From an uncultured Bacteroidales bacterium (GTDB taxonomy: Bacteria > Bacteroidota > Bacteroidia > Bacteroidales > WCHB1-69): a stretch of DNA of 64,000 nucleotides. Within the stretch, counting starts at the first letter, position 1. Every line of letters starts with the position of its first letter. The stretch spans positions 32,647 to 96,646 of the forward strand of contig CAJOFD010000005.1 of assembly GCA_905233585.1 (NCBI GenBank), read 5' to 3'. The notes beneath the pieces are model-generated. The model was given only the letters and a program-made list of their open reading frames with translations, ran no database searches and was not told the origin of the DNA. Below are positions 13,903 to 45,226 of the stretch, piece after piece. The position numbers and the translations under genes are program-made.

Positions 13903-14035
13903 ACGCTCACCTCTCAACTTTCAATTATCAAATTTAAATTATCACCTCTCATTTCTCACCTCTCAATTCTCAACTATCAATTCTTACCTCTCAATTCTCA
14001 ACTCTCAACTCTCAAATATTAATTCTCAGTTTTCA
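13903..14035. repeat. Degenerate simple repeat (CTCTCAATTCTCAACT type)
   Basis: Repeated CTCTCAA/TTCTCAA/CACCTCTCA words; related tracts at 15279-15310, 41235-41312 and 43746-43790. Confidence 0.8.
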
Positions 14036-14799
14036 ACTTCGTTTCCGCTGTTATCATCTTCTTCTTGTTGGTCATCATTATTATTTGAATAATTGTATGA
14101 TTTGCGCTCGAAGATATTCACATAATAATTAATGGTGTTATTCCAATTGTTAATGAAATTGGTGTATGATTCCGCGTGTGTAAAACGTTCTGCTGCTTCA
14201 ACATATGAAAGAATTTCATCATATATATTATCTATGACGAGCCTTGCATTTCGGAGAGCTCCTTTCTGCTTGAGCCCTTTTTCAGTATTTCTCTGGTCAA
14301 TGAGTACTGCAAAATACATATTCTTTTCCTTTAATGTTTGCACAAGTGCCATAATGTTCAATTTAGTAAGATGTGTCTGCATGGTAGGGGATTGCAGGTC
14401 TTCTATTAGATTGCGTATGCGGCTTGTTTGCTCGTCCTTTTGCTGCTGGTTGTCTATTTTATAATTATTAAGGACACTTTTCAATTTCTTTGCAGATGAT
14501 TGTTCAGATGAATAGACGCCATTATTTGACCAAGCATTGATGATATTTCTAATGCATGAATAAATCATATCTCTTTCGTTATCTGTCTGATTGATAATTT
14601 GTGTCAAATCGCTTCCTTTTGAAAGTTTGTAGCAACGGTTTTCTTCATTATAGGCTTCGTTGAAAGATGAAAAATAATTTTCAAGTTCTTCATTGCCTGT
14701 TGTATCTATTGCGGACATTTTTTCTTTGAACAGATACATAAATTCGATATGCAATCCGTTAGTAAGTTTTACTTTGTCTAATTTGATAAACTTTCCCAT
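14026..14799 (-). CDS. DUF6261-like hypothetical protein, copy 1
   Basis: Paralogous to 42632-43501 (NERD..YS.IRNI..AWSN, KQ.GALRNAR..ID..YD, NFIN.WN..I); acidic Asn/Asp/Glu-rich C-terminus; family name from memory. Confidence 0.75.
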   Translation of the reverse strand: MGKFIKLDKVKLTNGLHIEFMYLFKEKMSAIDTTGNEELENYFSSFNEAYNEENRCYKLSKGSDLTQIINQTDNERDMIYSCIRNIINAWSNNGVYSSEQSSAKKLKSVLNNYKIDNQQQKDEQTSRIRNLIEDLQSPTMQTHLTKLNIMALVQTLKEKNMYFAVLIDQRNTEKGLKQKGALRNARLVIDNIYDEILSYVEAAERFTHAESYTNFINNWNNTINYYVNIFERKSYNYSNNNDDQQEEDDNSGNEVEN

Positions 14800-14874: not shown

Positions 14875-15160
14875 TCTTGCGGAACTATCCGAAAATACTA
14901 CTTTTTACAAAATCATATTTGCAGAACACTCCGCAAGTACCAATTTTACAAAAATACATTTGCGGAATACTCCGCAAGTACTATTTTTTACAAAAATACA
15001 TTTGCGGAACTCTCCGCAAGTACAAATTTTACAAAAATATACTTGCGGAACTCTCCGCAAGAACTACTTTTTACAAAAATATATTTGCGGAACACTCCGC
15101 AAGCACTACTTTTTATAAAAATACATTTGCGGAATACTCCGCAAGTACAAATTTTTAGAA
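14875..15160. repeat. Tandem palindrome array 1, about 7 units of 41-43 bp
   Basis: Units such as TTTGCGGAACACTCCGCAAGTACTACTTTTTACAAAAATACA; TTGCGGA-NNNN-TCCGCAA palindrome (7-4-7). Confidence 0.92.
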
Positions 15161-15228
15161 AATGTTTCTCACCGCGAAACCTCTTTCATTGTAAAACTTT
15201 ATTTGTGGTTATCAAAGAAAGTTTTGTA
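15151..15228. repeat. Partial copy of shared intergenic element (TTTTTAGAAAATGTTTCTCACCGCGAAACC...)
   Basis: Near-identical to 15534-15613 and 41747-41821. Confidence 0.88.
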
Positions 15229-15354
15229 TAAATCTTACAAATGCTTATAAAATTAGAATTTATATTTGCGAGAAAGAAAATTGAGAATTGATAAATGAGA
15301 AATGATAGGTAGAACTTAATCTTTTCCATATTGATGACAAACGTAGAGAAAAGA

Positions 15355-15613
15355 ATGCGGTTTAGAAATATTTTCGTATAAAAATGTGAAACTTGGAGCG
15401 TAAAAAAACTGCCCGGGAAAATGGGATGACAAGTTCAATAGTATGTTGATTTGAAAAACAGTATTTGCATTACAAATCTACACGCCTATGAAACAAATAA
15501 TGGTGTTGCAGTTTTAGCGAGAAGTTTCCCTATTTTTAGAAAATGTTTCTCACCGCGAAACCCCTTTCTTTGCAAAACTTTCTTTGGGGTTATCAAAGAA
15601 AGTTGTATATAAA
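15355..15613. repeat. Shared inverted-repeat intergenic element, copy 1
   Basis: GAAACTT...AAACTGC / GCAGTTTTAGCGAGAAGTTTC ends at 15388-15528; homologous to 41569-41821. Confidence 0.85.
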
Positions 15614-41234: not shown

Positions 41235-41312
41235 TTGAGAGGGGAGAAGTTAAAATTTTGAGTTGAGAGGTGAGAAATGAGAGTTGAGAAGTTAAAAATT
41301 TGGAAATAATAT
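41235..41312. repeat. Degenerate simple repeat (GAGTTGAGAGGTGAGAAATGAGAG type)
   Basis: Inverted relative to the 43746-43790 tract. Confidence 0.75.
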
Positions 41313-41483: not shown

Positions 41484-41560
41484 AATCGGACGCACGCAGT
41501 GCGTCCTTACATTAATATTAATATATCATCGCCAATGTGCCATGATATTTCTTTATATTA
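41484..41560. repeat. Direct repeat with GGACGCACGCAGTGCGTCC palindrome, copy A
   Basis: tcggacgcacgc[a/g]gtgcgtccttacattaatattaatatatcatcgc repeated at 41823-41885. Confidence 0.85.
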
Positions 41561-41568
41561 AGAATTCA

Positions 41569-41821
41569 TGCGGTTTAGAGTTATTTTTGTAAAAAATGTG
41601 AAACTTGGAGCGTATAAAAACTGCTTGAAAGAATGGGCTGGCAAATTTGTAAGTCCGCATTCTTTAAACATTATATCTACAAGATAAGTTACTATATCCT
41701 ATGAAAGAAATAATGTTGTTGCAGTTTTAGCGACAAGTTTCCCCATTTTTAGAAAATGTTTCTCACCGCGAAACCCTTTCTTTGCCAACCTTTCTTTGGG
41801 GTTCTCAAAGAAAGGTTGATA
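41569..41821. repeat. Shared inverted-repeat intergenic element, copy 2
   Basis: Homologous to 15355-15613; inverted repeat 41600-41741 and hairpin 41786-41818. Confidence 0.85.
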
Positions 41822-41822
41822 T

Positions 41823-41885
41823 ATCGGACGCACGCGGTGCGTCCTTACATTAATATTAATATATCATCGCAAATGTGCCATGTTA
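41823..41885. repeat. Direct repeat with GGACGCACGCGGTGCGTCC palindrome, copy B
   Basis: Second copy of 41484-41560. Confidence 0.85.
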
Positions 41886-41990
41886 CTTTTTAACATAAAA
41901 AATATATATCGCATTATTGCGATAATATTTCTTTATAAGAAATATTAATTCTAATTTTTCATTTCTTATTTATCAATTTTTCAAGACCAA

Positions 41991-42514
41991 CTTTCGCCAA
42001 GCAGCGAAACCACTACTTTTTGAAAAAACCTACTTTCGCCAAGCGGCGAAACCACTACTTTTTGAAAAGACCCACTTTCGCCAAGCGGCGAAACCACTAC
42101 TTTTTGAAAAGACCTACTTTCGCCAAGCGGCGAAACCATTACTTTTTGAAAATACCTACTTTCGCCAAGCGGCGAAACCATTACTTTTTGAAAATACCTA
42201 CTTTCGCCAAGCGGCGAAACCACTACTTTTTGAAAATACCTACTTTCGTCAAGCAGCGAAACCACTACTTTTTGAAAAGACCTACTTTCGCCAAGCGGCG
42301 AAACCACTACTTTTTGAAAAGACCCACTTTCGCCAAGCGGCGAAACTATTACTTTTTGAAAAGACCTACTTTCGCCAAGCAGCGAAACCCATATTTTTTG
42401 AAAAGATACACTTTCGCCAATCGGCGAAAACTATATTTTTTGAAAAGAACACCTTTCGCCAAGCAGCGAAACCCATATTTTTTGAAAAGATACACTTTCG
42501 CCAATCGGCGAAAA
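41991..42514. repeat. Tandem palindrome array 2: 13 units at exact 42-bp period
   Basis: Units start at 41991, 42033, 42075 ... 42495; CTTTCGCCAAGCGGCGAAACCACTACTTTTTGAAAAGACCTA; TTTCGCC-NNNN-GGCGAAA palindrome. Confidence 0.95.
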
Positions 42515-42578
42515 TATAAAAAATTAAAAAAATATTATTTTTTCTGATAGGATTTGATATTTGTATTAAAAAAAGTTG

Positions 42579-42588
42579 TATCTTTGCC
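42579..42588 (+). promoter_or_regulatory. -7 promoter box of DUF6261-like copy 2
   Basis: TATCTTTGCC between array and gene. Confidence 0.65.
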
Positions 42589-42631: not shown

Positions 42632-43501
42632 ATGGGAGAGTTTTTAACTATCAACAAATCTAAAATGACGAATGCTGACCATTTCAATTTTATGGAAGAA
42701 TTCAAGCTTTCGCTGTCCAGCGTGGACATTAGTGACAACGCAAAACTAACCGCCGCTTTCGGGGAATTTAACGACGCATTTACGGAAGAGGACAATTATT
42801 ATATGCTATCAAGAGCCAACCAGTTCACTGATGATATCAACAAGGTGGATAATGAACGGGACAATGCTTATTCGACTATTCGCAACATTGCCACTGCTTG
42901 GTCTAATTGTTTTGTCATGTCTGACGAACAGGCGGCTGGGCAAAAAATAAAAAATATCATTGATGTCTATAACATCGATATCAATAAACGCTCCTCAACA
43001 GAGACTGCGCAGATTACCAATCTCGTTGCTGACCTGCAGAGTGCTAATATGGCAGCCAATATAACACTGTTAAAATTGACGGATATATTGCTTTACCTTT
43101 CCGATAAGAATGAAGAATTTAAGGGATTGATTCTTCAACGCAATGCTATCAATGCTCAAAAACAAAATGGAGCACTTCGCAACGCCCGCAACATCATTGA
43201 TGAAAAATATGATGCCCTTGTGCAACTTATCGAAGCCTATTCTGTTATATTAGATAACCCTGAGGGATATAACAATTTCATCAATGCGTGGAATATTAAT
43301 ATCGAGCGTTACCGCCGTATATTAAATAAGACGACATATAACCCTTCGGAAGATGACGAGAACAATGATATTGACGGAGACGACAACAATGACAATGGCG
43401 GAAATGATGAAAACAACAATGGAGACATATCGGATGACGGCACAAACATTATCGCCGACCTAGATGATGACAACGGAGTTGTGACAGAAGTACAAGAATA
43501 A
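42632..43501 (+). CDS. DUF6261-like hypothetical protein, copy 2
   Basis: Paralogous to 14026-14799 along its length; long acidic Asp/Asn-rich C-terminal tail. Confidence 0.78.
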   Translation: MGEFLTINKSKMTNADHFNFMEEFKLSLSSVDISDNAKLTAAFGEFNDAFTEEDNYYMLSRANQFTDDINKVDNERDNAYSTIRNIATAWSNCFVMSDEQAAGQKIKNIIDVYNIDINKRSSTETAQITNLVADLQSANMAANITLLKLTDILLYLSDKNEEFKGLILQRNAINAQKQNGALRNARNIIDEKYDALVQLIEAYSVILDNPEGYNNFINAWNINIERYRRILNKTTYNPSEDDENNDIDGDDNNDNGGNDENNNGDISDDGTNIIADLDDDNGVVTEVQE

Positions 43502-43531
43502 ATTATTAAACAATGTAATTTTCTTATTTAG

Positions 43532-43554
43532 AGGCGTACTTCGGTACGCCTTTA
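43532..43554 (+). terminator. Hairpin with UUCG loop after DUF6261-like copy 2
   Basis: AGGCGTAC-TTCG-GTACGCCT then TTATT. Confidence 0.75.
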
Positions 43555-43560
43555 TTATTT

Positions 43561-43705
43561 CCTGTCAGCGGACAGGCAAAAATACTCTTAATAGTATCAT
43601 CGCTTATCGGCGGAAAGTTAAATTTACAACAAGTACATTCATCGCCTGTCGGCTGAAATATATATAATGTTCCAAAAAATAGTATCGCCTGTAAGCTGAG
43701 ATGAT
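43561..43705. repeat. Degenerate palindrome array 3, about 4 units with 42-43 bp spacing
   Basis: CCTGTC at 43561 and 43645 (84 bp apart); ATCGC[C/T] at 43599, 43641, 43684. Confidence 0.65.
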
Positions 43706-43745
43706 ATAAAAAACGGCCGCCATATAATGGCAGCCTGTCTTTTAT

Positions 43746-43790
43746 CATTTCTCAATTCTCATCTATCAATTCTCAATTTAGCAATCTCAT
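43746..43790. repeat. Degenerate simple repeat (TTCTCAATTCTCATC type)
   Basis: Same family as 13903-14035. Confidence 0.7.
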
Positions 43791-45226
43791 CATTCCGCTG
43801 CCCCGACAGATGGCGGATTGTTGCGGACGGTACCGAAAATGTCCGAGGAGGGGCTTGGCAGATATTTCCCGGCACCTTTGCACGGCGAGTTGCTTGATAG
43901 CGAAAAGTCCCAGGCTGTTCTCGTGGCATTGTTGAACATCGGCTCGATGTTGATTAATGTATTTTTATGGTTGAGCTTGTTCAGGTTGTCGGCGGAGGCT
44001 TTAATCAGGCAATTATTCAGTTGTATGTCAAACAGCGATTGTCCTACCGAGTCGGTAAGTATCTCGTTGCTTTGTCCCCCAATGCCCGAAATGATGTTGT
44101 TGTTCAATTCGGCAAGCATGTCGCCATAGACCACGGTAGTATTTTGTTCGGTCGCATATTTGTAATAATTGCTGATGAACACGGAGGGTGTTGTCCGCGT
44201 ACTTTCGTAGAGGTTGTAAATGGTATTGTTGTTCAATCGGCAGTTGCCGCCGGCACTCAAATAAACGCCATAGACGGCACAGTCGGTGATGATATTGTTC
44301 TCCGCCGTCAGATTATAGGCTCTGGTGTGCAGCCCGAAGAGGGCATTTTGTTTGATAATGGTATTGCTCAACAGCAATTTGTTGCCCATGGCGTTTTCTA
44401 TGGTCTCAGCCTGTATGCCGATATAGGCATTGGAGATTTGGGCATAATTGATCACATGGTCTTTGTCGCTTTCCATCAGCCAGATTCTGTCCCAGAGGGC
44501 GTAATCTTGCATAGACCAGTAGTCTGTTCTGTCTCCGCGGAACGCCACGGGTTGGTCTTTGCTGCCGTTTACATGCAGGCAGCTCCCCCGATAGCACAGC
44601 ATGCCTCCGTTTTTGTGAAAATACACTTGGGTACCTGCCTCTATATCCAGTTGTGCCGCCGAATCCACAACGGCATAACCATAGATGACGTAGGGTTTGT
44701 CGTTCTTCCAGGTGATATGTTCGTTCTCATGGGCGACAATCTTGCACGGCAAGCCGAAATAGGTCGCATCGGGGAGAATGAAATGCACGTCCTGTCCCGC
44801 CGCTTCCAGTACAACCCTTTGTTTGGTATTATTGGTGTAAAAGAAAATAGTGTCCGTAACCACCAGCGGATTGTTGGCGCCGTTGGGCGGAATATTGACA
44901 CGGATAAAAATATATATGCTGTCGCCGCCGGCTATCTCCACATCGTCAAGCTCGTTGCTCGCACTGCCGTCTATATTTAGACTGTAATACGAAGAACTGC
45001 CGTTGTACATACGGATATTCGTCTTGACCGTCTGTTTGTATGGATTATATACTTTGAGTTGTTTGGTCGTGGTCGTCAGAGACGTAAAAACCGTATCGAA
45101 AAATACCGTATTGGTTGAAAAACGCAAGTACGCTTCTGCGCCATTATAGAAAACCGTCTTGCGGCACCCTTGAAAACTTATGGCCAACAGGGCGGTCAAT
45201 ACATATATATATATATTTCTTTTCAT
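43790..45226 (-). CDS. Right-handed beta-helix lipoprotein (hypothetical)
   Basis: LLAISFQGCRK lipobox; repeated NNNI.../ISNAYIG.../NNTIYN-type motifs. Confidence 0.78.
   Translation of the reverse strand: MKRNIYIYVLTALLAISFQGCRKTVFYNGAEAYLRFSTNTVFFDTVFTSLTTTTKQLKVYNPYKQTVKTNIRMYNGSSSYYSLNIDGSASNELDDVEIAGGDSIYIFIRVNIPPNGANNPLVVTDTIFFYTNNTKQRVVLEAAGQDVHFILPDATYFGLPCKIVAHENEHITWKNDKPYVIYGYAVVDSAAQLDIEAGTQVYFHKNGGMLCYRGSCLHVNGSKDQPVAFRGDRTDYWSMQDYALWDRIWLMESDKDHVINYAQISNAYIGIQAETIENAMGNKLLLSNTIIKQNALFGLHTRAYNLTAENNIITDCAVYGVYLSAGGNCRLNNNTIYNLYESTRTTPSVFISNYYKYATEQNTTVVYGDMLAELNNNIISGIGGQSNEILTDSVGQSLFDIQLNNCLIKASADNLNKLNHKNTLINIEPMFNNATRTAWDFSLSSNSPCKGAGKYLPSPSSDIFGTVRNNPPSVGAAE

Follow-up and report, generated by a model that had tools for sequence, protein, structure and literature searches.

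A row of four 42-bp units behind a DUF6261 gene in a Bacteroidales genome, and the palindromic arrays that accompany this gene family

Does the short intergenic stretch behind one of the DUF6261 genes of this Bacteroidales genome hold a true array of repeated sites, and how does it relate to the arrays found in front of such genes? Within the window, by which we mean the whole 64,000-nucleotide stretch of DNA that was analysed, DUF6261 copy 1 lies at 14026-14799 on the minus strand (257 aa; PF19775, 6.7e-34) and copy 2 at 42632-43501 on the plus strand (289 aa; PF19775, E 1e-32). Array 1 (14877-15162) consists of about seven units of 42 bp with the core TTGCGG-N5/6-CCGCAA, and array 2 (41983-42513) of 13 units of exactly 42 bp with the core TTTCGCCAAGCGGCGAAA. 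The stretch in question, array 3, starts 56 bp past the stop codon of copy 2, and this gene does have arrays on either side, as the preliminary description had proposed, with array 2 upstream and array 3 downstream. Array 3 sits between two convergent intrinsic-terminator-like hairpins, right behind the one at the 3' end of the DUF6261 gene (43532-43551, plus strand; AGGCGTAC-TTCG-GTACGCCT and a T-rich tail). The second hairpin (43715-43735, minus strand) belongs to a convergent NosD-like beta-helix gene (43790-45226, minus strand), which is conserved and was matched in 57 of the 59 genomes of the family.

Other elements lie close by. A putative Bacteroidota-type -7 box, TATCTTTG, was recognised by eye at 42579-42586 on the plus strand, between array 2 and the DUF6261 gene, with TTTG candidates at 42553 and 42560. 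This box is not enriched between arrays and genes (12 of 94 loci, 7.2 expected), and a common promoter motif linking the two was rejected. An element of about 270 bp upstream of array 2 (41560-41835, also at 15354-15610 and 15150-15220) was likewise discarded as a part of the system, because it is dispersed over the genome, with 19 BLAST matches at 77-100% identity that mostly lie away from arrays; several copies are no more than about 1.5 kb from a DUF6261 gene, with no other association with arrays. Additionally, heptamer-type low-complexity stretches (TCTCAATTCTCAA / TGAGAGTTGAGAA) occur close to the two DUF6261 loci, at the ends of genes (13906-14028, 41236-41299 and 43745-43791), and adjoin the arrays on contigs C43 and C46.

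The words first seen to recur in array 3 stand where they had been placed, CCTGTC at 43561 and 43645 and ATCGCT/C at 43599, 43641 and 43684. We divide the stretch, which like the other arrays is assigned no strand, into unit 1 at 43557-43598, enclosing the perfect hairpin CCTGTC-AGCG-GACAGG (43561-43576), unit 2 at 43599-43640 with the core ATCGCTTATCGGCGGAAA, unit 3 at 43641-43683 with the core ATCGCCTGTCGGCTGAAA, and unit 4, represented by its core only, from 43684 to about 43701 (ATCGCCTGTAAGCTGAGA). The spacings of these four units over 43557-43701 are 42, 42 and 43 bp. The hairpin of unit 1, which had been listed among the residual stems of the array, is present in full, but its centre of symmetry is displaced by about 4 bp relative to the dyad of unit 3.

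Could such a pattern have arisen by chance in AT-rich DNA between genes? In coding DNA of this genome, too, 100-bp stretches reach lag-42 matches of 0.46-0.5. Over 43557-43705, however, lag 42 gives 48.6% matches, the highest value among lags 5-99, and none of 2000 dinucleotide shuffles attained it, so that the proposed 42-bp periodicity is real. In the broader interval 43500-43750 lag 42 is still the best (0.378; p 0.0005, or 0.008 over lags 20-79). The block of four units and 18 columns scores 80, compared with a mean of 42 and a maximum of 53 in 400 shuffles. Across the 460 kb sampled from the window's genome for all block and profile scans, just five blocks of 42-bp period whose core is not simple reach a score of 76 or more, namely array 3 and four in the promoter arrays of DUF6261 genes, whereas the control periods of 38, 40, 44 and 46 bp yielded none. 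Furthermore, the core TCGCCTGTCGGCTGAAA, with at most 3 mismatches allowed, has four matches in the window, every one inside the array 3 stretch (0.07 expected). Chance recurrence is refuted by the shuffles, and we consider it vanishingly improbable. In B-DNA, with about 10.4 bp per turn, four turns correspond to 41.6 bp. Array 3 is a genuine row of dyad-like sites four helical turns apart.

The preliminary description had also taken the stems of array 3 for degenerate relatives of the array 2 palindrome, and here the evidence did not follow. The layout TCGCC-N4-GGC-GA resembles array 2, but no more closely than it resembles unrelated arrays, and in consensus similarity to array 3, array 2 comes only 9th to 12th of 88 unrelated arrays drawn from many genomes. 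When the array 2 profile was compared with the array 3 units, single units were not among the top matches in the 460 kb and their scores were ordinary. In 2.75 million tests, units 2 and 3 were the only in-phase pair to reach a joint score of at least 10.9 with this profile; the outcome depends in part on the periodicity of array 3 itself. Apart from this suggestive joint match, neither the profile nor the consensus comparison speaks for derivation from array 2, which is not established.

How array 3 has aged is seen from where its units still agree. Compared in pairs, the units are 72% identical over the 19-bp core and 32% identical over the linkers; in array 2 the corresponding values are 95% and 84%. 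Of 100000 column permutations, 22 attained the concentration of conservation seen in array 3. Even at a score of 30, array 3 goes unreported by Tandem Repeats Finder, since only the cores still resemble each other and the linkers have lost their likeness. The earlier label of a decayed array thus suits the linkers, which are randomised, but not the cores and the spacing, which have been retained. A reader might see here a non-functional relic, left from an ancient array that once stood upstream of a DUF6261 copy since lost or displaced: the linkers are at background identity, the core is imperfect and is an exact match to none of the genome's four DUF6261 arrays, and BLAST found no cognate of the array elsewhere in the genome. 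A neutral relic would be expected to lose its spacing through indels and its cores together with its linkers, whereas in array 3 the linkers are saturated and the cores and the 42, 42 and 43 bp steps persist, which suggests constraint on core and spacing. We hold the relic explanation to be possible, if somewhat doubtful, for array 3 alone. The stretch looks as though its core and spacing have been under constraint rather than in plain decay.

The arrays of the window are part of something more general. In the window's genome each of the four DUF6261 genes has an upstream array, and across Bacteroidales the best upstream lag is 41 bp in 33 and 42 bp in 26 of 70 DUF6261 genes (47 lags compared; 59 of the 70 together), these 70 loci being those that scored best in each profile search and not a random sample. 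The regions downstream of the same 70 genes have no comparable excess at lags 41 and 42. In a closed 4.30-Mb genome, G296, the 38 DUF6261 genes are dispersed, and for 37 of them the strongest lag upstream falls at 40-43 bp, a few of these being weak. Placement can vary. In Prevotella nigrescens FDAARGOS_1486 a 41-bp array with a palindrome around TGCCGAAGTTCGGCA overlaps the annotated start of the DUF6261 gene K8O81_RS10460, and at locus L066 (G439:C12) the gene has a 42-bp array directly past its stop codon and none upstream, a parallel to array 3. The contig that carries a DUF6261 copy in genome G004 ends 4 bp ahead of the start codon; arrays are able to interrupt assemblies, and for that reason the pattern may have escaped notice in draft genomes. 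Overall, nearly every DUF6261 copy in Bacteroidales is coupled to a private array, a widespread and previously undescribed association. In the open-licence papers searched, DUF6261 has a single mention, in one paper, and we found there no description of the system, nor one of 41/42-bp Bacteroidetes arrays, absence from these papers being no proof.

The spacing of these arrays is far more constant than their sequence. In 91 arrays, 566 of 590 steps from one unit to the next measure 41 or 42 bp; an in-frame coding repeat was dismissed as an explanation because these two lengths are equally common. Consensus units have a palindrome score of 5.95 (3.90 when shuffled), with 44 of the 91 arrays exceeding all 20 shuffles, and the palindrome arms are better conserved than the linkers (0.82 versus 0.75; Wilcoxon 2e-7). 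Unit sequences are private to each copy, the promoter arrays of different DUF6261 genes in G296 being about as alike as shuffled ones apart from a slight tail. Likeness between arrays climbs with protein identity, a 13-of-16 match being present in 70% of protein pairs at least 60% identical and in 2.7% of pairs below 35%, a link that co-inheritance alone could also yield. At loci L003 and L004 the proteins are 77% identical by BLAST and the cores differ. As for the linkers, the motif ACTACTTTTT is common, within the window's genome, to many units of arrays 1, 2, L001, L004 and C8 despite their different palindromes and may be a phased A-tract. Other periods occur in G296 as well: at a threshold of 0.5 in 395 kb, lags 42 (22) and 63 (19) stand out, and among the arrays with a 63-bp period (L163 3427-3650, L165 601-781, L170 5143-5316, L172 3868-4087) several visibly consist of 21-bp units, the length of two helical turns.

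Palindromes able to form hairpins would also suit arrays that act as RNA, in which rows of transcribed hairpins are bound or processed and DUF6261 is the RNA-binding partner. A strict spacing of four turns fits DNA rather than RNA hairpins, the arrays of the window lie upstream of the TATCTTTG box or behind terminators, and a search of Rfam gave one sub-threshold match and no family above its gathering score. We judge a role as RNA improbable.

Whole arrays or their cores also occur away from DUF6261 genes. The array 2 palindrome recurs on contig C43 in 13 units of 42 bp, placed behind the terminator of a TMEM260-like gene at a locus with no DUF6261 match, and between the two arrays the core is 96.6% and the linker 57.2% identical. 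Contigs C8 and C9 likewise carry the core TTGCGG...CCGCAA that arrays 1, L001 and L004 have in common. All four non-promoter arrays found in the window's genome (C43, C8, C9 and array 3) face an intrinsic terminator at 2-117 bp. Among 400 random positions in G296, a control set in which coding DNA is included, 31 do so, and G296's own arrays follow the tendency only weakly. In that genome whole arrays recur at remote intergenic sites at roughly 79-94% identity, three DUF6261 promoter arrays being repeated at 2, 2 and 3 such sites. BLAST detected remote copies for only these few (3 of 33 promoter arrays), and 15 of the 18 orphan arrays in the 395-kb sample match no DUF6261 array. Array 3 has the look of an old member of this remote type.

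Might the arrays instead be a mobile or self-amplifying minisatellite, similar to a MITE or REP element, that DUF6261 spreads or expands and of which array 3 is a dead copy? The recurrence of whole arrays in G296 would agree with this, as would the dispersal of DUF6261 genes, with up to 38 in a genome. When orthologous loci, proposed earlier as a check, were compared, array 3 was missing from 19 orthologous neighbourhoods of the beta-helix gene, a result that spreading could account for. There is also a precedent in the BrickBuilt element of P. gingivalis, an intergenic minisatellite MITE (PMC4596501). Against such an origin, DUF6261 has no transposase domain, the repeat unit changes with nearly every gene copy, unlike in a single spreading element, and the period stays at 41-42 bp while the sequence is free. 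Nor would simple spreading predict that the palindrome shared by array 2 and C43 is kept (97%, rounded) when its linkers have diverged (57%). On balance we think a mobile minisatellite rather unlikely.

For the DUF6261 protein itself, a Pfam search returned PF19775 only, with no transposase, Y1 transposase or DNA-binding domain, and comparison with PDB sequences gave no convincing match. The predicted model of copy 2 is all-helical and of low confidence (pLDDT 65); a Foldseek search with it found no match below E 0.001, and no function emerged from the fold. NCBIfam, PADLOC and PHROGs returned nothing convincing, and a scan of viral contigs found no relative. Both copies of the window (14026-14799 and 42632-43501) have Asn/Asp-rich C-terminal tails of variable length, in place of which the relatives at L009, L015 and L023 carry an additional C-terminal stretch. 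The closest relative of copy 2 in another genome (L031, 5-859 of JAFZUH010000217.1) shares about 75% DNA identity with it and has other neighbours; its sequence stops 4 bp short of the start codon, which might come from the upstream array having broken the assembly.

The reading that we favour, and to which we give about an even chance, makes array 3 a member of a gene-plus-array system in which DUF6261, or a partner, binds the palindromes, with autoregulation and remote action as the outcome. DUF6261 is the natural candidate binder because its gene is the constant neighbour of the arrays. Each DUF6261 protein, or an obligate partner, would recognise its own palindrome as a symmetric oligomer; a spacing of 41-42 bp would put the sites on one face of the helix, where the proteins could stack into a regular complex. 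At the promoter array this would lead to autoregulation of the DUF6261 gene. The arrays behind terminators (C43, C8, C9 and array 3) would be targets, at which the complex may cap gene ends, bridge DNA or limit read-through, and array 3 would be the oldest-looking target in the window, with a specificity that is weakened or different. As neither the sequence nor the predicted fold shows a DNA-binding domain, binding by DUF6261 is something we infer, together with autoregulation and remote action. More speculatively, and with distinctly less confidence, DUF6261 could be an array-binding family with dozens of paralogues per genome. Each paralogue, with a palindrome of its own choosing, would assemble helix-phased nucleoprotein arrays at its promoter and at the remote arrays that match it, giving many orthogonal, rapidly diverging circuits within a single chromosome that organise DNA or regulate genes. 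DUF6261 lacks a known function, and an adjacent private array at fixed helical spacing provides a direct handle on it; a gene-plus-array system would supply dozens of orthogonal protein-site pairs inside one genome. Array 3 adds that arrays can also sit behind a gene, and that core and spacing can outlast the similarity of linkers.

Several known systems share parts of this arrangement. REP and REPIN palindromes are associated with RAYT (Y1) transposases, and the repeats also occur elsewhere in the genome. The likeness to DUF6261 is that of a protein family adjoining palindromic repeats with further occurrences in the genome; in contrast, DUF6261 has no Y1 transposase domain and its arrays are long, regular tandem rows, private to each copy. 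Iterons, parS-type centromeres and multi-operator arrays are helix-phased repeated dyads adjoining the gene of a presumed binding protein, and the dyads beside DUF6261 genes resemble them to the point that autoregulation is plausible and a mode of action of the partition or operator kind is conceivable. They differ in that no Rep, ParB or helix-turn-helix family was detected and in that there are up to 38 paralogues per chromosome with differing arrays. CRISPR arrays are rows of identical, palindrome-containing repeats with unique spacers and cas genes. The rows of palindrome-containing repeats are the common feature, but the DUF6261 arrays acquire no variable spacers, their linkers being repeated within arrays 1 and 2 and drifting together, their period is 41-42 bp, and a search of defence families gave no convincing match for DUF6261. 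BrickBuilt of Porphyromonas gingivalis likewise consists of spacerless tandem repeats, intergenic and in multiple copies in a Bacteroidales genome, and as far as the available part of its description goes it is a single repeat family with a 23-nt unit and leader and tail inverted-repeat ends, tied to no gene family (PMC4596501). The unit of array 3 is 42 bp, and the DUF6261 arrays have a period of 41-42 bp, a unit of their own for each gene and DUF6261 adjacent. Within this gene-plus-array pattern array 3 takes its place as an array of the usual period next to DUF6261, set downstream of the gene instead of upstream.
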